DNA from: Zygnema cylindricum
Lineage: Eukaryota > Streptophyta > Zygnematophyceae > Zygnematales > Zygnemataceae
Reading direction: 5' to 3'
NCBI GenBank assembly: GCA_037447655.1
Contig: JBBHKE010002899.1
Span: 1-64,000 of the forward strand
DNA: 64,000 nt
Part shown: piece after piece, positions 26,166-63,399 of the stretch
How the letters are laid out: each line of letters begins with the position of its first letter
Position numbering within the stretch: the first letter of the stretch is position 1
Notes under the pieces: model-generated
Databases searched by the model: none
Told to the model about the DNA's origin: nothing
Seen by the model: the letters and a program-made list of their open reading frames with translations, nothing else
Translations under genes and position numbers: made by a program

Positions 26166-28384
26166 TTAGCTGCTAGAGGCAGCCATGGCTGCCTGCAGGT
26201 CCTCAGTGACTACGACAAGTATGAGGGCTGTAGTAAGGTCACAAAAGAGACTACAAAATACTTTTTTTTTCAACACTCCCCTTATTTTATAGTCTTTCTT
26301 TTGTTTCAGTCCACACTTCTCCCTATATAATATTAATTTAGGAGAAGGAACCGGTTTAGTCATCATATTTGCTACCATCTCACCATCTGGTCTATATTCC
26401 AGACTAATGATTTTATTCTCAACTTTCTCCCTAACAAAGCTCAAACGAATATCCATGTGTTTTGCTTTAAAATGATGCTTAGGGTTTGCTGCAATTGCAA
26501 TCGCAGCCTGATTATCACAAAATATCTTTTGTACTCCATTATTCATGTATCCCAATTTTTGAAGCAAAGATTTCACCCACATTAATTCTTTCACAACCGA
26601 ACAAGAGGCCATATACTCAGCCTCCATGGTGGACTGAGCAATCACCTTTTGTTGCTTACTGCTCTAACAACAAGCCCCATTCCCAACATACAACACATAC
26701 CCAGAAGTATACCTCCTCATCGGAGCATCCCCATAACTAGCATCACTCCAAGTAGTGATGTCAGTGTTATCCCCACCCAGATGCAACCACAAATCTCTTG
26801 TTCCTACCAAATACCGCATGACCCTTTTGGTCGCTTCCCAATCTTTCTTCCTAGGGTCATTCAGACTCTTACTTAATACTCCCACAGCTGCAGCTATATC
26901 AGGACGAGTACACTTCATAAAGTAGATCATACTACCGACAACCTGTCTGTATGGAATAGTTTGAATGAACTTGCTTTCCTCAAGTCCTAGCTCATTATCC
27001 AAGATCAAGAATCCCTCCTCTTAGCTCCCCTCATTTCCCTTCTTTAGGTCCATTGGAGTCGTACAACTATTTGCTTTTTCCATTTGAAATTTTTCAAGCA
27101 TATTCCCAATTGCTTCCTTTTGAGTTAGTCTAATTGTTTTCTTTTCTCTATCCCTCTCCATTTGAATTCCCAAAATGTACTTTGCCTCCCCCAAATCTTT
27201 CATTTCAAATCTACTCTTTAGATCCTTTTTCAATCTATTAATTTTCACCATTGATTTACTCAAAACAAGCAAATCATCAACATATATGGCAATGAAAATT
27301 ATACCTTCCTCATCCTCAAATAAGTAGATGGAATGATCCGAACTGATTCGGATATATCCCAAACTTGTCAAAAACTCGTCCAACTTTTTGTTCCATTGGC
27401 GTGGAGCTTGCTTTAGTCCATAAAGGGACTTTATCAATCTGCACACCTTGTTTTCTTCTCCTTTCTCCACAAATCCTTCCGGTTGTCGCATGAAGATCTC
27501 TTCTTCCAATTCTCCGTGTAAGAAAGCGGTTTTGATGTCCATCTGATGCACTTCTATGTCTTCCGCTGCCGGGAGACTAAGTAGAATTCGGACGGAGGGG
27601 AATCTGACAACTGGAGCAAAAGTCTCCTCATAATCGATTCCCTCCTTCTGTGTGAACCCTTTTGCCACTTATCTGGCTTTGTATCGCTCGATAGTGTTAT
27701 CTGGATTGAGCTTCAACTTAAATACCCACTTGCACCCTATTGGTTTTGTATCCGGAGGACAATCCACCAACTCCCAAGTGTTTGCTTCCATAATGGAAGC
27801 CATCTCATCATTAATAGCTGTCACTCATCTACCACCTTTCGGCTATTAACTGTTTTTGAGTAAGTCTGGGGTTCGCTCAAATGTGATAGCTTAGTTACCT
27901 TGTTGTTCACTTGTCTCTCTTGAAGTCTCCTGCTGCTTCTTCTTCCTCCTTGAAATTCTGACGAGGGAATCGAGGGTAATCTCGGGTTCCTCCGAACAAC
28001 TTCACCTTCTCCCCTATCCGTGGAGTCTATCTCCGGTCGTTCATCGTCCATTTCCTGTATTTCCTCGTTTTCTTCCTCGGTTTGAATCGAAAGATTTGAC
28101 TCCAAAAAAGGGTCACTCTCGGTCAGATTTTTCTCTTCCTGTGCACGATCAGGCTGAACCGAAGTTTGGTTAGTAGAATCTGCATCTAACTCATTTTTGG
28201 ATTCAATTCTAATTCTGACCGGTTTAGTATACTTAAAGGGATCTATGGATTTTCTTTCATCCATAACTACCAAGTGTTTTACTAAAATTATGTCTTCTCT
28301 ACCGAGATCATAAACTCTATACCTTTTTACGTTCTCATCATACCCAAGTAAGTATCCCGGCTTTCCTCTAGCATCTAACTTCCA
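26166..28384 (-). pseudogene. Ty1/copia retrotransposon remnant (RT-RNase H)
   Basis: Minus-strand frames give a complete copia-style reverse transcriptase and RNase H order: a hinge region (KLDARGKPGYLLGYDE), the RT start (VAKGFTQKEGIDYEETFAPV), MDIKTAFLHGELEEEI, SLYGLKQAPRQW, the catalytic IAIYVDDLL, then YRQVVGSMIYFMKCTRPDIA and the RNase H segment STMEAEYMA. The frame is broken near 26664, 27021, 27670 and 27822 by stops or shifts. Gag, protease and integrase are missing: copia sequence stops near 28385 against an unrelated repeat. A polypurine tract (AAAATAAGGGGAG on the minus strand) followed by TGTTGAAAAA marks the likely 3' LTR start at 26275. It is inactive. Confidence 0.92.
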
Positions 28385-28647
28385 GAAGAGACGTACGGAG
28401 GCGAACTAAACCGAATCGACGGAACCGAACCGAAATTAGTGTAGCTTTGGAAGGTTAGTAACTTAGTATGAATGATAGAACGAAGTCAACGAAGTCGTAC
28501 TGTATAAAGTCAATCTCATATCGTACGCACTTTATGTAGTATGGTATGAAATATGTACTTTAGTCTGTGAAATTCTTTAGTCTGTGAATATTACAGTAAT
28601 TTACGAAGTAAAGGGCGCTATTTTCGCCTTTTTGTATTTGCTATTTA
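28385..28647. repeat. Repeat flanking MITE C1, shared with two other sites
   Basis: From GAAGAGACGTACGGAGG through AGTCTGTGAATATTACAG to AAAGGGCGCTATTTTCGCC, this sequence is also found at 23986-24210 and, from ATGAATGATAGAAC on, at 32509-32685. A last fragment is at 37738-37800. The MITE sits at the same point in each, so the repeat and MITE multiplied together. Confidence 0.7.
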
Positions 28648-29993: not shown

Positions 29994-30798
29994 GGGTGAA
30001 GTTCCATCATACGTTTCTGTAATCGTACGGCCAACTCTACATATGAGTCAATGTTCCATCACGTTGACTCTATAAACCACGTGTTCTAATTTACTAGCGC
30101 CACACAAGTTATGATCCAAAAGTGAATATCTTTCACATTTTGAGCACCGACAAACTTAACTTCAAATCTTCTTTTGCGTACCATGTACCTGCGTACGAAA
30201 TCATCATACGGCAAAACTTTTATACTTTTTGCATACGCCAATCTGTACGCAAGCTTATTTTTTAGGGTTTATGTTTTCGAACATAACGAAAGTCATTTGA
30301 GAGAAATAGTGTGACGAACAAAACTTACCGAAAAATAGTGTGACGTAAGAATGTTACGAAATTTCGTTTTTATTTTTGGTTGTATTTTGGAAAGCGTGTG
30401 TCTTGTGCAAATCTTAAGTTTTTTCGTTGATTTTCCAATCTCACACGTAGCTTAATCGTCCAGCGTGTCACGATTTTTTTGTTCTTTATATGCCAACCAA
30501 CCTCCTCGAGGTGGGTTGACAATTACAAAGAGAAATGAAGCGAACTCCTCGCAAATGAACACCCAACGGCCAGTATTACCTCCAAGACCTTTGGAGAAAA
30601 TATTGAAATCATTATTGCAAAAATTACAATGGTAAAACCACCTGAGTACAAAAGGGGTAAAACTGAAAAAAAAACTTTTGGAGACTACGACGGTCACAAA
30701 AAAATAAGCTACGCCCAAAAACTAAAATGAAACACAACAATACTAACAAGAGCTAAGAACCAACACAAAACAATACCAGAGTTAGACGGCCTACAAAA
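29994..30798. other. No gene; possible D-type element start
   Basis: Starts with a D-like end, then gives no recognisable coding sequence. A short hairpin CAACCTCCTCGAGGTGGGTTG lies near 30496. Confidence 0.35.
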
Positions 30799-31860
30799 GG
30801 AAAAAACCTACACTAGCCTACCTATAAAAAGCTAAGGTCCACAACCACGAAGATCGTGGATGTGAACCGGGACCCTTGGTGGAAGGTCGGGAAGACCCCG
30901 CCTCTCATCAGCTAGTATGCTACAACGAAGGAGAGACGCCCCTTGCGGCCGCTTAAGTGCAATTGAGACACGTTGACGATATAACGAAACCAAAAGACAA
31001 GGTGGAGGACTCCCCAAACCTCGAGATTTAAACGTTAGTCACGCACACAGACGAAGAAAGTCATCGAAAGACTTGTCCAAAGATCAAAAAATCCCCACTG
31101 CAAAAGGAACAAACTGGTCTAACGGGTTGTGGTGAGCGTAGTCTCTTTCTTTTGAAGCCGCTCCGTCCCGAGCCGGCACACTTTTATGCGAAGCCGCGAG
31201 AGATCAAATTTGTGACCCAGTCGGATCCGTGAGGACCATATCGCCAAGCGTCCTCCCAGTACCATGAATAAAAACTAAGTGAACCCGAGGGCTCATACCA
31301 CCCTTGTATTGGGGCCGAGGTGGAAGAATTTGAGAAACCTCACGTTTGATAGTGTAGCCCGCCTCGGCGCCAATGGCAACAATGGCATCTCACACTAAAT
31401 CATGTGTAACAGTCCGTTCCCCCCCATGCGAGCAACCAAGCAAATGGATTCCTTCAGCATAAATGGTTTGGTTGCAAACGCACCGAGGCCCCCCTAAAAG
31501 CGGAGGGTGAGGCAAACCCTACCGCAAGCGTAGAGCAAAAGTGAGTTGGTCTAGTGATAGACGAAGTTTCGAAAAGGTTGGAGTCGCTTGTAGCCACGCA
31601 CTAGCTCCAAGCCCCGGACACGAACGTAAATGAGCACGCGCTTGAGCAGAAGGTAGCGCCTCCAAGAGGTTTGCAAAATTAGCAGTGACCACTTGCTCAA
31701 ATATGCGTTGTTGAAGTTAGAAGTTAGTGTCGGCCATGAGGGATTGAAAAGGTGGAACTTGGTTTTGAGCGTCTGGAGGTATTAGCGCACGAGCTGAAAA
31801 GAGAGCTTGTTGAAATGGAAATAGCCCGTCTTCCACTTTAGAGACAACTTGCGCCAGAAT
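30799..31860 (-). pseudogene. Non-LTR retrotransposon 3' part, copy 1 (cut by gap)
   Basis: Minus-strand translation gives a zinc-knuckle-like CVCNQTIYAEGIHLLGCSHG segment. After it come ERTVTHDLV, then RPQYKGGMSPRVHLVFIHG, GDMVLTDPTG and QFVPFAVGIF, the order seen in the C-terminal domain of many eukaryotic non-LTR reverse transcriptases. Stops interrupt it (after HDLV, after GSQI, after GIF). It is cut off by the 10-N gap at 31861. From about 31043 on it shows no difference from 35623-36440. Confidence 0.75.
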
Positions 31861-35267: not shown

Positions 35268-37384
35268 TACACCGCGAATCGTTATTAGTGTCAAAGTTTA
35301 AATAGTGTTGAAGAATATTTACCGTAATTGATGCTAATTAAGAATTTGATTTAAAAAAAAAAAAAGGTGTATTCTAAGGAAAAAACCTACACTAGCCTAC
35401 CTATAAAAAAGTTAAGGTCCACAGCCACGGAGATCGTGGATGTGAACCGGGTCCCTTGGTGGAAGGTTGGGAAGACCCCGCCTGTCATCAGCTAGTGTGC
35501 TACGACAAAGGAGAGCCGCCCCTTACGCCCGCTGAAGTGCAATTGAGACACGTTGACGATAGAACGAAACCAAAAGACAAGGTGGAGGACACCCCAAACC
35601 TCGAGATTTAAACGTTTGTTGCGCACACAGACGAAGAAAGTCATCGAAAGACTTGTCCAAAGATCAAAAAATCCCCACTGCAAAAGGAACAAACTGGTCT
35701 AACGGGTTGTGGTGAGCGTAGTCTCTTTCTTTTGAAGCCGCTCCGTCCCGAGCCGGCACACTTTTATGCGAAGCCGCGAGAGATCAAATTTGTGACCCAG
35801 TCGGATCCGTGAGGACCATATCGCCAAGCGTCCTCCCAGTACCATGAATAAAAACTAAGTGAACCCGAGGGCTCATACCACCCTTGTATTGGGGCCGAGG
35901 TGGAAGAATTTGAGAAACCTCACGTTTGATAGTGTAGCCCGCCTCGGCGCCAATGGCAACAATGGCATCTCACACTAAATCATGTGTAACAGTCCGTTCC
36001 CCCCCATGCGAGCAACCAAGCAAATGGATTCCTTCAGCATAAATGGTTTGGTTGCAAACGCACCGAGGCCCCCCTAAAAGCGGAGGGTGAGGCAAACCCT
36101 ACCGCAAGCGTAGAGCAAAAGTGAGTTGGTCTAGTGATAGACGAAGTTTCGAAAAGGTTGGAGTCGCTTGTAGCCACGCACTAGCTCCAAGCCCCGGACA
36201 CGAACGTAAATGAGCACGCGCTTGAGCAGAAGGTAGCGCCTCCAAGAGGTTTGCAAAATTAGCAGTGACCACTTGCTCAAATATGCGTTGTTGAAGTTAG
36301 AAGTTAGTGTCGGCCATGAGGGATTGAAAAGGTGGAACTTGGTTTTGAGCGTCTGGAGGTATTAGCGCACGAGCTGAAAAGAGAGCTTGTTGAAATGGAA
36401 ATAGCCCGTCTTCCACTTTAGAGACAACTTGCGCCAGAATGGGGACATCATCCACAATGAAACGAGAAGTGATGGCAGGAACCACCAAGGCCCAACTACC
36501 CAGATATCCTGCTGGCGCAACTTTGGCCACGGAAATCAAACCTAACTCGCCGTTGAAAATTGGGAGGCTGGCGTGTTGACGAGCAAGTGCCCCCCCCGGA
36601 TGATCAAAAATACCATGACCAACGAGGTGGTGAAGTACACCCAAAAGATTGTCATCAAAATCTTTAAGGGAAGACAAAAATGAAGTTGTGGGTGGTATAG
36701 TCCGTGCAAGATAAAGAGGGCGCTAAGCAAAAAAACGGATTAAGATCGAAAAAGCCACCTGTGTGTCCGGCAGCTTAAGGAGGTCGTCGCTATGAGAAAG
36801 GTCTTTTAACAACGTATCTTGAATTACTTGGTTGGTGAAAGGAGCACCAATAGGGCAACCTAAGGCCTTTATACCCTCATCTTGGGATGCAAGACGAAAA
36901 CCATTGGGTAGCGGGCAATCCGACGACAAACCTCGTGGGCACCAAGCCACACACTTAGATGGTTTGACTGAGAGCTCGATTCGATGAAGTTGGTCCGCAA
37001 AATGAGAGAAAGCAAAAAAAAACTTGATCGCGCAGACCCACAATATGCGTGTTATCCGCAATTGAAGGGAATAAACAACATGGGAAGGCTGTAGCTGATG
37101 CTCGTTATGCTTGAAGATGGGCCAAAGAAAAATATGGCAAGATCTCTGTAATGTTGTTTTTCGAATAAAAACAAAATAGGCGGTAAAAATTGGTACGGAG
37201 AGTCATGGATTTCTGTAAACTACGCTACACCGCGAATCGTAATTACAGTTATGAACCGCATTGAGCGGGGTACCTCAAATAACGTGCAAAAACATTTAGC
37301 GTACTTTATTCTATTTGAGAATTTGCCCCAAAAAAAGGGGTACCCCAATTAGCGTCATGTACGCTAATAGCGATTCGCGGTGTA
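35268..37384. mobile_element. Family A element carrying a LINE insertion
   Basis: Left end TACACCGCGAATCGTTATTA; right end CTAATAGCGATTCGCGGTGT(A). A second left-type end (TACACCGCGAATCGTAATTA) at 37226 makes a short 159-bp member, 37226-37384, or a nested copy. The non-LTR remnant fills about 35377-37130. The TA at the insertion point and the restored E2 arm support TA target use. Confidence 0.6.
35377..37130 (-). pseudogene. Non-LTR retrotransposon remnant, copy 2 (RT end + C-terminal domain)
   Basis: On the minus strand, 36723-37061 encodes the end of a reverse transcriptase of LINE type (LSVKPSKCVAWCPRG, then EGIKALGCPIGAPF). 36297-36677 encodes the following linker, and the part to 35377 repeats the zinc-knuckle and FVPFAV domain of copy 1. 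Stops break the frame, and the catalytic FADD part is absent. Product inactive. The 3' end lacks a clear poly-A tail. Confidence 0.8.
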
Positions 37385-37734: not shown

Positions 37735-39247
37735 AATATTATAGTAATTTACGAAGTAAAGGGCGCTATTTTCGCCTTTTTTGTATTTGCTATTTACTGT
37801 TTAGCCTATTTTAGTGTTTTAGCTCCTTTGTCCATTATGTACGTGATCGTATACGTTTATGTCTGATACGGACGCAGAAAGTACGAGGTGTAAATCTCAA
37901 AACCGAACAATAGAAGTTGTCGGTGTTGGTACTCAGCTTTAAGGGTCTATGTCGCAAAAAGACAAAACGTCAAGATAAGCGCTTTTTGTTGGTATGGACG
38001 GTGGGCGGTGTTACACAATCCAGCCGCTAAACCCTGGTATACATGACAGCTTAATATGGAATGCCACGTGTAAATTGTACGCATAGAATTCAGTAAGGGC
38101 ATGCCACGTCTTGCATAATATTGCTATACACTGACAAAAAGTTCATCTTCTCTTGACTTTTTGTCTTTTTACGCGCCACACCATAAAGCAGCGTACGTAC
38201 GCCGACAGTTTTCCATTGTTCGATTTAAAAAAATTAAACTTGTACTTAAACGTACGGATCACAGAACCAGAAAGAAGCATTTCTATGGTTAGGTACATTG
38301 GGATACAAATGGGCGAAATTAGCAAAAAAAAAAGGCGAAAATTGCTCCCACCGCCAAATATTGCAATACATAACAATGCATCAAAATAAAATATATTAAT
38401 TTACATTGCAGTACAATTTGTGTACTGTATTGTTCTACAATTAGATTATTGTACTGTATTCTAAAAACAATACGATTTTTCCGTAAGATGTGCAACTCTG
38501 CATTTTATTTCTCGTCGAAACCCTAAAAAATAGTACGAAATCACAAACAAAGTCCAAACATCCCGTTTTAGTACAGTGCGGTACTGTAGTTATGGACTTC
38601 CGGCGATCGCGTCCGTATGTATGATGACTTGATCAGGATCTTTGCGTGTACAATTCGGTTTCCATTCCAAAGTTATTAGTACGAAGTTGGCAGTACTTCT
38701 AAATACGTTCACACTTGTGATAATTTTTGGCTTCTTGCTGACTATGAAAGTTGTCCTCACATTTGAATTGACGAGAAATATAAAATGAATACCTCTCTAA
38801 CGTCAGTCATGGTTCTTTCGTAATTATCCAGTTGGGGTCGAGTATACTGAGTTCATATTCGAACACGGGTATAGCAAAGCAAGCCCTTTGTTGCCATTTC
38901 CTCGGCTTCACACGCTACTGACGATCGGAGTTAGAAGGAGTACACCGGAAATGTCGGTCCCATCTTTTTCAAAACAATCCTCACTGCCTCCGAGTACGAA
39001 TTCCACAATTTGCTGAGTACGGATTCTGCAATTTGAGGAATTCACAGCAGCGCCACGCTGTCCATGGCTGCCTTCCTCTCGGTAGCCATGGCCTCCAGGG
39101 CGTCTCAACTTCTGAACCCTAAATGAACAAAACCTGTTTTCAACGTCCTTTCAAACCTAAACTTGTGCTGCCAGTTTTGTTAAGCATTGTTTAAGCAATA
39201 AGGATTCCGCTCTTAACCCTAATTTGCTGTTTTCCTCTAAACTGGTG
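37735..39247. other. Upstream region of KDM5 gene
   Basis: A fragment of the C-flank repeat (37738-37800) is followed by unique sequence with scattered GTAC words and no gene. The last ~450 bases before the start codon lose the repeat character and probably hold the promoter and 5' leader. I could not identify a TATA box with confidence. Confidence 0.4.
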
Positions 39248-61567
<22,320 letters not shown>

Positions 61568-62741
61568 GTGAGTAAAAAATCCCCTTCTTTTAGGAAATTC
61601 CACTTCCCTCTTTTCTAACACTTAATTTTACACAAAAGCCCTATATCCGTTTTTGTCAGCGGTCATTTTATGTACAGCCTTTTAGAGCTTATCCTTGAAG
61701 ATTTAATATAACCAAAAGAATTAAGAAACTAACTAAATTTGTGGAAGGATTGTGGAGACAGTTGTCTCATTGTTCCAGAACAAGACTTAGAGAGAGGGGT
61801 CCTTTTTATTACATTTAACAGTTGTAAGCTACAGCTCTACTTTTTATTTGCCCTCGCTCTCACCCCTTTCCTGTGTGAGAAGCTCTTGTCTCTTCTCCTA
61901 TCCCCTCTTCTTTTTTAACTTCCATCAGCTCCTCTCTCCTGTATATTTATCATATTCTTTCGTCTTTACAGCTCATTTTCTGTCTTCAATTTTATGTCCT
62001 CTCTCTCTCCTTCCCTGTTCACGCCTCTTTCTCTTTTATCCTCTGTCGTCTTCTTTCGCTCCTTTCTCCCCTCATCGCCACACCTGCATTTGACTCTTTG
62101 CTCTTCCACTCTCAGCTTCTCTTTTATTTTGCTTTTTTTGGTGAGGAAGAGGGAGAGAGGAGTGATAGAAATACAAAGAGGAGGGGAGAGAAAAGAGGAA
62201 AGGAGGCCTATAGTAGAAAGAAAGTAAAAGGAGAGAGAGAAGAACTAAGAATGAATGCATAGGAGAGAAGTCTGTTCTGCTTTCCTTTCTCTCCTCCCTT
62301 TTCACTCTCCTATTTTGTGTACGTTTCTTTTTTTCAAGAGAAGGGAGGATAGGAGAAAGTAGAAAGAAGGAGAGAAAAAAGGAGAAGAGAGAAGGAGCCA
62401 GAAGGAGAGGATAAAGGAGAGAGACCGATAGAAGAGAGAGAATAAGACCAAAAAAGGCCCTTGATAAAAGGCCTTTTCATTTGGTCTCAGAAAAGTACCA
62501 GTTGACCAGCCCGTAATTAGTAAATAGCCCGGTTCAGTTTGGTTTCGTTTGACTTCGTTTTAGTCCGGAACGAACTAAACAGGTTAAACCCCGGTTTGGA
62601 AATTCTGAACCAAACCAAGCTATTAGATTTTGCTGAACCGCACAGCTCAAAACTGTTAAACCGTTAATTGTCTCCCAATTTAAAAAAATACGCAAAATAT
62701 GCCAGGAAACCCTAAAAGTTACGTTGTCAAAAACGTAATAC
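61568..62741. other. KDM5 downstream intron or flank: low complexity
   Basis: Pyrimidine-rich 61850-62110 and purine-rich 62140-62440 could pair. From about 62525 there are GGTTCAGTTTGG-type words like those at 23870-24070, marking another element into which the miniature LTR element has inserted. No exon recognised. Confidence 0.45.
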
Positions 62742-62987
62742 TGTTGGAGAACTGTCCACTTTGGACTCCACACGTGTGTATCGCGCTCTAAGCTGGTTCG
62801 CCAGTGCGCCGCTAATCGCCGTATAAATTCGGTATTAGGCGCTTGCGTACACATCGGCCGCGTAGCTCAGTTGGTAGAGCTAGTGTACGGTTCACGCAGG
62901 TCCCGGGTTCGAACTCCGGCTTGGCCATTTTCCAAAGTTAACACTTTGGCGCCCTTGCGATTAGTTGAATATCGCCTATTTCTAACA
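62742..62987 (+). repeat. 5' LTR of the miniature element
   Basis: 246 bp, TG...CA ends with TGTTGGA / TCTAACA inverted tips. Contains a TATA-like word, the tRNA-like unit at 62856-62927, and TTTT directly after it. Confidence 0.92.
62856..62927 (+). tRNA. tRNA-like unit in 5' LTR
   Basis: 72 nt, cloverleaf-capable. Compared with the 3' LTR copy it has C for G at acceptor position 6, which breaks one pair, G for A in the anticodon stem and T for C in the T stem (a wobble). The loop ACGGTTC lacks U33 and the usual purine at 37, so it is unlikely to decode. A and B boxes and a T run suggest it could still be read by RNA polymerase III. Confidence 0.65.
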
Positions 62988-63048
62988 TGGTATCAAAGCC
63001 AGGGGGCGATGGCAAGCCACACGAGATGGAGTACATCATGAGGGGGCG
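62988..63048 (+). other. Primer-binding site and polypurine tract of the miniature element
   Basis: TGGTATCAAAGCCAGG directly follows the 5' LTR; CATGAGGGGGCG directly precedes the 3' LTR. The 61-bp length is the same in the intronic copy at 53478-53538, where the site reads TGGTATCAGAGCCA. Confidence 0.85.
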
Positions 63049-63294
63049 TGTTGGAGAACTGTCCACTTTGGACTTCACACGTGTGTATCGCGCTGTAAGC
63101 TGGTTCGCCAGTGCGCCGCTAATCGCCGTATAAATTCGGTATTAGGCGCTTGCGTGCACATCGGCCGGGTAGCTCAGTTGGTAGAGCTAGTGTACGGTTC
63201 ACACAGGTCCCGGGTTCGAACCCCGGCTTGGCCATTTTCCAAAGTTAACACTTTGGCGCCCTTGCGATTAGTTGAATATCGCCGATTTCTAACA
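63049..63294 (+). repeat. 3' LTR of the miniature element
   Basis: 246 bp, same structure as the 5' LTR. The tRNA-like unit is at 63163-63234. Confidence 0.92.
63163..63234 (+). tRNA. tRNA-like unit in 3' LTR
   Basis: The best-formed of the three copies. 7-bp acceptor with two G-U pairs, D stem GCTC/GAGC, anticodon stem with four pairs (GTGT/ACAC) round the loop ACGGTTC, T arm CCGGG-TTCGAAC-CCCGG, discriminator A, no encoded CCA, then TTTT. A box TAGCTCAGTTGG, B box GGTTCGAACC. The loop is not a normal anticodon loop. Confidence 0.7.
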
Positions 63295-63399
63295 AATATT
63301 TTGTACATCAATCGTACATTAATACTGCTATTTTGCTGTACTTTTATTCACACGTACTTTTGTACTTTTGTACTTTCAGGTACCTTACTACTGTAAGTT

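Follow-up and report, generated by a model that had tools for sequence, protein, structure and literature searches.

A 553-bp repeat at positions 62742 to 63294 of the Zygnema cylindricum DNA analyzed here (the window, a stretch of 64,000 nucleotides, G000:C2176:1-64000) raises two questions: what kind of element it is, and what a tRNA-like unit is doing in each of its two LTRs. Taken alone, the identification of this repeat as a TRIM, or miniature LTR retrotransposon, with a tRNA-like unit in each LTR is almost certain. The explanation as a whole, in which the TRIM would be mobilized in trans and the unit would act as a Pol III promoter and R region, appears probable to us; its individual steps differ in strength and are graded below.

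The element has an LTR-core-LTR layout, the coordinates of which are exact. Its two 246-nt LTRs, at 62742 to 62987 and 63049 to 63294 on the plus strand, are 97% identical (7 differences) and are separated by a 61-nt core (62988 to 63048, plus strand) without coding room. The element, like its 5' LTR, begins with TG and ends with CA (in full, TGTTGG...CTAACA) and is flanked by a near-perfect 5-bp target site duplication (TSD), AATAC at 62737 to 62741 and AATAT at 63295 to 63299, which agree in 4/5 letters. A primer binding site (PBS), TGGTATCAAAGC, adjoins the 5' LTR at 62988 to 62999, and a G-rich polypurine tract (PPT), GAGGGGGCG, interrupted by a single C, forms the 3' end of the core at 63040 to 63048; both lie on the plus strand. 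The TRIM hallmarks are thus all present: the element is shorter than ∼1 kb, has two LTRs but lacks coding capacity, and has a core bounded by a PBS and a PPT, and its family shows multiple copies, target site duplications, and solo LTRs. The preliminary description had proposed this anatomy, and every part of it was found. A second copy of the element flanks, representing an empty site, was not found within the 64-kb window.

The PBS matches 11/12 letters of the plant TRIM PBS motif, TGGTATCAGAGC, which we take to pair with initiator-Met tRNA; the initiator-Met primer site of the preliminary description is therefore borne out as a match to this motif, with the pairing itself being our assumption. 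The same motif is given as the PBS of Cassandra and plant TRIMs (PMC7215508, excerpts). Among 12 distinct internal sequences of the family, the PBS matches the motif in 10 to 12 of 12 letters (12/12 in the copy at 53 kb), and the PPT reads TGAGGGGGCG in 10 and TGAGAGGGCG in 2. The other 10 uninterrupted full elements have cores with 86.9 to 98.4% identity to that at 62988 to 63048. Self-priming by the element's own tRNA-like RNA was considered and rejected, as the complement of its CCA-added form matches the PBS in 8 to 9 of 12 or 11 to 13 of 18 positions, compared with 11 to 12 of 12 for the plant PBS motif.

Each LTR contains a 72-nt tRNA-like unit at LTR positions 115 to 186, located on the plus strand at 62856 to 62927 (5' LTR) and 63163 to 63234 (3' LTR). 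Both units are called as tRNA, as anticipated in the preliminary description, with Rfam RF00005 scores of 35.4 and 46.3 bits, respectively, and an ARAGORN assignment of Thr-GGT in each case. A third copy in the window, at 53296 to 53367, scores 44.8 bits; all three exceed the RF00005 gathering cutoff of 29 bits. A 30-nt probe taken from the unit matches the window at three places, and 100 shuffles gave no match; a 20-mer of the unit had no matches among viral contigs. The A box, TRGCNNAGTNGG, is exact in all three window copies (63170 to 63181 on the plus strand in the 3' LTR). The B box, GGTTCGANNCC, is exact in the 3' LTR (63213 to 63223, plus strand) and in the 53-kb copy and carries one change in the 5' LTR. 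Both boxes had been described as intact in each LTR and followed by a TTTT stop; this holds for the two A boxes, the two TTTT runs, and the B box of the 3' LTR, with the B box of the 5' LTR as the exception.

The cloverleaf forms 20/21 pairs in the 3' LTR unit, 19/21 in the 5' LTR unit, where a CT mismatch breaks one acceptor pair, and 20/21 in the 53-kb copy. An AA mismatch in the anticodon stem is common to all three window copies and recurs in 49/51 LTRs of the family. Minimum free energy folding gives a cloverleaf-like structure for the 3' LTR and 53-kb units and not for the 5' LTR unit; fold energies are near or mildly better than those of shuffled sequences (z scores of −1.4 for the 3' LTR, 0.1 for the 5' LTR, and −1.9 for the 53-kb unit). 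As read from the sequence, a C precedes the anticodon, at the place where tRNAs carry U33.

Several further signals surround the unit. TATAAAT occurs at LTR positions 81 to 87, 34 to 28 nt upstream of the unit, in both the 5' LTR (62822 to 62828) and the 3' LTR (63129 to 63135), on the plus strand. When the upstream LTR was shuffled 2,000 times, a TATAAA starting 28 to 37 nt before the unit appeared in 0.25% of cases, a frequency to be read in light of the fact that this interval was picked after the site had been seen. TTTT directly follows each unit on the plus strand (62928 to 62931 and 63235 to 63238) and is found nowhere else in the element; having a single TTTT per LTR is not significant, as one or none was obtained in 34% of 2,000 shuffles. 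In the 3' LTR, the TTTT is followed by a predicted 18-nt stem-loop (7-bp stem and 4-nt loop) at 63239 to 63256 on the plus strand.

The 3' LTR was used as the query for a search of the 352.8-Mb assembly (2,689 contigs). Since 40 of the 309 first-look candidates were scored, the resulting copy numbers are lower bounds: at least 51 distinct LTRs covering at least 237 of the 246 nt (from 46 loci plus the window, leaving out two fold-back LTR pieces at 53 kb) and at least 11 uninterrupted LTR-core-LTR elements. All 51 listed LTRs contain the tRNA-like unit. The A box is exact in 47 of them and the B box, GGTTCGANNC, in 45, while TATAAA is present in 47 and TTTT is kept in 48. The proposal that this family is a tRNA counterpart of Cassandra is anatomically correct. 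We note that copies lacking the unit would rank low with a whole-LTR query and could escape, which biases the test of both presence and conservation. Among 72 matches to the upstream LTR and 71 to the unit (overlapping loci counted), no upstream match lacked a unit match within 130 nt.

Over 37 insertions, the 5-bp TSD is perfect in 26, agrees in 4/5 letters in 3, and is poorer in 8. Among the two-LTR elements, 8 of 11 have perfect duplications, as do 18 of 26 single LTRs; C2257:361419 and C2428, both counted as perfect cases, have the two flanks in common and represent one event. The set of 37 leaves out C2014, in which 1,172 nt interrupt the LTR, and the fold-back copy on C1148. For C1002, C2527, and C1979, where blast stopped short, the outer ends were placed where the element should end, a shift of 2, 2, and 8 nt; of these three, C1002 alone has a perfect TSD after the shift. 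Given the 26/37 perfect duplications and the lack of matches to the 30-nt probe in 100 shuffles, the element and its family are far beyond chance. In the 11 elements, the two LTRs are 89.2% to 100% identical to each other, with 100% reached in one element and 99.6% in two; thus, the insertions range from old to recent. Some loci with low TSD scores have a particular structure. C720 is not a solo LTR, because a PPT adjoins it. At C2302:18115 (L046) and C2337:297625 (L034), an extra LTR lies ∼2 kb from a full element and has one flank in common with it; these extra LTRs look like segmental duplicates in which the LTR was duplicated along with its flank.

Two family members have a fold-back structure. 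The copy at 53182 to 53568 of the window consists of LTR positions 1 to 202 on the plus strand followed by the reverse complement of element positions 219 to 402. Its junction, at approximately LTR position 202, coincides with the base at which the 3' arm of the stem-loop following TTTT begins, and this copy may be a self-primed reverse-transcription product. CTAAT is present at both of its outer ends, where the LTR sequence itself has CTAAT. The second fold-back (L039, positions 1591 to 2000, on G000:C1148) comprises an LTR plus core on the minus strand, 33 nt, and a core on the plus strand.

The 53-kb copy sits within a gene for a KDM5/JMJ17-like (KDM5/JARID1) histone demethylase, between the exons encoding C5HC2 and PLU-1. 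This gene has long introns and spans 39161 to 56038 on the plus strand, perhaps extending to 57.6 kb; pieces encoding JmjN, ARID, PHD, JmjC, C5HC2, and PLU-1 were recognized between 39 and 56 kb. The best of its 1,049 protein matches is a Mesotaenium-like protein. In a first tree, the KDM5 protein groups with Closterium sp. NIES-53, P0010, and a presumed Spirogloea protein (98/94). In a second, the group also holds a presumed Mesotaenium protein (94/92) and falls outside the land-plant set (98/98); the last two species names are our reading of the protein identifiers. The trees contain 39 and 21 rows, hand-picked from 120 plus 120 listed, and 3/5 rows of the group are long branches. On these trees, a streptophyte alga as the host is likely. 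Elsewhere in the window, direct repeats of 1,065 bp at 30797 to 31860 and 35376 to 36440 are 98% identical and lack TG...CA ends; the first is followed by an N run.

The preliminary description had asked whether the tRNA-like part is conserved more strongly than the rest of the LTR, and the outcome is neutral. Mean diversity across the 51 LTRs is 0.0450 in the unit, 0.0465 in LTR positions 1 to 80, 0.054 in positions 88 to 114, and 0.091 in positions 191 to 246. Diversity within the unit is uneven, with a low value for the A box (0.019) and a high one for the B box (0.080), which includes a widely shared variant at nt 58. Compared with circularly shifted windows, the diversity of the unit is not convincingly lower (11%). 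Differences between elements (one LTR per contig, 36 LTRs) amount to 3.6% in the unit, 4.0% in LTR positions 1 to 114, 2.7% in positions 187 to 209, and 12.7% in positions 210 to 246. Conservation of the unit is thus similar to that of the upstream LTR and exceeds that of the 3' tip of the LTR. Variable sites shared by at least five copies number 4/72 in the unit versus 17/174 outside, which is not significant (P = 0.33). All four of the shared unit variants (nt 38, 39, 58, and 62) spare the cloverleaf, as they either fall in loops or replace a UA pair with UG or a GC pair with GU; of the variants found in one or two copies, several break pairs. Over the 51 copies, 1005/1069 cloverleaf pair cells are formed. 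The pattern of shared variants leans weakly towards constraint in active copies. The comparisons of diversity, shared variants, and LTR differences do not support stronger constraint on the unit than on the rest of the LTR; relative to the upstream LTR, they support parity at most.

LTR retrotransposons carry R at both ends of their RNA, are primed by a tRNA at the PBS, undergo R-mediated strand transfer, are primed again at the PPT, and produce a duplication of fixed length upon insertion. Because the 61-nt core encodes nothing, the proteins for these steps would be supplied in trans. Mobilization by an autonomous element, probably Copia, with priming by initiator-Met tRNA, is very likely; a Copia driver would be in keeping with the 5-bp duplication and the PBS, in analogy with published TRIMs (PMC10886601, excerpts). 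No autonomous partner was found within the 64-kb window, and a blast search with the element gave TRIM copies only. A Copia polymerase remnant is present at 26166 to 28405 on the minus strand, broken into several open frames with an RVT_2 match in one, and no link between it and the TRIM was seen.

The tRNA-like unit may serve as both an internal Pol III promoter and the R region, a reading for which we see the chances as evenly balanced. The A and B boxes would be bound by TFIIIC, and initiation would occur near the 5' end of the unit, at a position set by these boxes and possibly by the TATA box 34 nt upstream. The weak TTTT of the 5' LTR would then be read through by Pol III, which would terminate on reaching the identical TTTT of the 3' LTR. 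The product would be an RNA of ∼390 nt with the unit (75 to 80 nt with its surroundings) at each end, as strand transfer needs; a stop at the first TTTT would instead yield a short tRNA-like RNA that is useless for transposition. Under such a mechanism, the cloverleaf would be kept mainly as a promoter and not as a working tRNA. That the genomic RNA is made by Pol III is, judged from the sequence, roughly a coin toss. More tentative, at somewhat less than an even chance, is the specific proposal that the unit is R, such that a single block of 76 nt would provide promoter, terminator, and terminal redundancy, accompanied by a TATA box at approximately −34 that either polymerase could use. If this proposal is true, the family would represent a lineage of TRIMp3, the name proposed for Pol III TRIMs (PMC10886601, excerpts), in the algal relatives of land plants.

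Several observations count against this explanation, among them the parity in conservation and the modest fold energies given above. The TTTT of the 5' LTR could halt Pol III before the core is reached, and the TATA box would suit Pol II equally. Because this box would place a Pol II start at almost the same position, anatomy by itself cannot separate the two polymerases. The leading alternative is that Pol II transcribes the element from a TATA box in U3, starting ∼30 nt downstream at the 5' end of the unit, which would then be the head of R, an RNA structure, or a passenger. We consider this a serious possibility, if one with less than even prospects. TATAAA, located 34 nt upstream of the unit and present in 47/51 LTRs, speaks for it, but plant tRNA genes reportedly use TATA and CAA motifs as well (going by the title of Yukawa 2000, as cited in PMC12308677 and PMC3978253), so that the box does not discriminate. 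The parity in conservation between LTR positions 1 to 114 and the unit also suits Pol II, whereas retention of the A box in 47/51 and the B box in 45/51 LTRs, together with shared variants that leave the cloverleaf intact, speaks against it. Also in favor of Pol II, published nomenclature applies the name TRIMp2 to TRIMs lacking a small-RNA promoter and so takes them as users of Pol II (PMC10886601, excerpts).

A second alternative is chance capture, in which a tRNA gene or tRNA-derived SINE entered an ancestral LTR and has since been hitchhiking without function. A comparison of the paired LTRs within single elements, which measures decay after insertion, shows equal differences in the unit and the rest (28/792 versus 63/1,894 sites), and across copies the diversity of the unit approximates that of LTR positions 1 to 80, both in line with a passenger. 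Equal decay after insertion is, however, expected of any dead copy and is uninformative about the master, and the presence of the unit in 51/51 listed LTRs with 1005/1069 of its pair cells formed sits poorly with a lack of function; we regard chance capture as improbable. The preliminary description had named copies lacking the unit, or faster decay of the unit, as signs of such a capture. No listed copy lacks the unit and its decay is not faster, within a test biased by the whole-LTR query and the scoring of 40/309 candidates.

The ARAGORN scan covered 37 of the 46 loci (L001, L003, L005, L007, L011, L014, L016, L027, and L030, whose matched positions fall in the window or in scanned loci, were left out), with an LTR common to two scanned loci counted once. 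That the unit yields a working tRNA-Thr spread by the element is very improbable, as the resulting calls in 43/49 LTRs outside the window (39 Thr-GGT, 2 Thr-AGT, and 2 Asn-GTT) are set against the C in place of U33 and the anticodon-stem AA mismatch noted above. These calls nevertheless carry a warning for annotation: 41/49 LTRs outside the window are called as a tRNA-Thr gene, which would inflate a tRNA count of the genome.

Returning to the preferred reading of the element as a trans-mobilized TRIM with a candidate Pol III promoter in each LTR, we find that its design has precedent. The preliminary description knew of no described example; one has been published as Helenus, TRIMs with tRNA-derived sequence in their LTRs (Kojima 2024, PMC10886601, excerpts). 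Helenus hosts comprise Pucciniales, agaric fungi, six animal phyla, and, as the only plant, Selaginella (PMC10886601, excerpts). According to Kojima, Pol III transcription is unproven for Helenus too (PMC10886601, excerpts). Literature from 2023 on yielded Kojima's paper only for Helenus TRIMs (open-licence literature), and no streptophyte algal Helenus was among the matches listed in the open-licence literature. A TRIM survey of 48 plant genomes, including seven algae, reports 5S rRNA sequence in the Cassandra family only, and the term tRNA does not occur in the main text of that survey (PMC4717578, excerpts). The design is thus already described, and the novelty probably lies in the host lineage alone: Zygnema probably adds a second host from the plant lineage, and probably the first from the green algae, to a type listed in plants from Selaginella only (PMC10886601, excerpts). 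The type is documented here by many insertions and not by a single copy. Its tiny size and recent copies, one of which has identical LTRs, make the family suited to a direct test of Pol III use for the genomic RNA of an LTR retrotransposon.

Other known systems resemble the element in part. Cassandra, of vascular plants, is likewise a TRIM (565 to 860 bp; PMC10886601, excerpts) whose LTRs each carry a Pol III gene, and its PBS, TGGTATCAGAGC, is one letter off from the one here (PMC7215508, excerpts). Unlike the present element, Cassandra carries 5S rRNA sequence; here, the tRNA model is the only one to match in the LTR. Cassandra was ruled out by the lack of a 5S match in Rfam scans (E values up to 1). 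The Ajax TRIMs of nemerteans share a Pol III promoter in the LTR (predicted here) and a 5-bp TSD, but they have a 5S rRNA fragment and belong to another phylum (PMC10886601, excerpts). The tRNA-derived SINEs (SINE2) also use tRNA-derived A and B boxes as a promoter, a role predicted for those here. SINE2 elements lack LTRs, a PBS, and a PPT and are moved by LINE machinery, whereas the present element has LTRs and 5-bp TSDs; its LTRs, PBS, and 5-bp TSDs rule out a SINE.

The closest correspondence is with Helenus. Both have a tRNA-derived unit in each LTR with A and B boxes kept, a PBS and PPT, and solo LTRs, and both have a 5-bp TSD (in plants and fungi for Helenus; perfect in 26/37 insertions here) (PMC10886601, excerpts). 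The conserved Helenus boxes (A box, TRGCY...YGG; B box, GGTTC) have their counterparts here, where the patterns TRGCNNAGTNGG and GGTTCGANNC are matched in 47 and 45 of the 51 LTRs, respectively. The unit is implausible as a working tRNA in both cases. Isotype disagreement is seen in many Helenus families, which are judged nonfunctional as tRNAs, and this further counts against a working tRNA-Thr here (PMC10886601, excerpts). The dimensions differ from those of the Selaginella family Helenus-1_SMo, which, by its published description, has an LTR of 120 bp and a core of 85 bp, compared with 246 and 61 here (PMC10886601, excerpts). A further difference lies in the PBS, which here resembles a sequence complementary to a tRNA 3' end; in most fungal Helenus families, the anticodon loop is used instead (PMC10886601, excerpts). 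Taken together, the element has every Helenus-defining feature that was tested.
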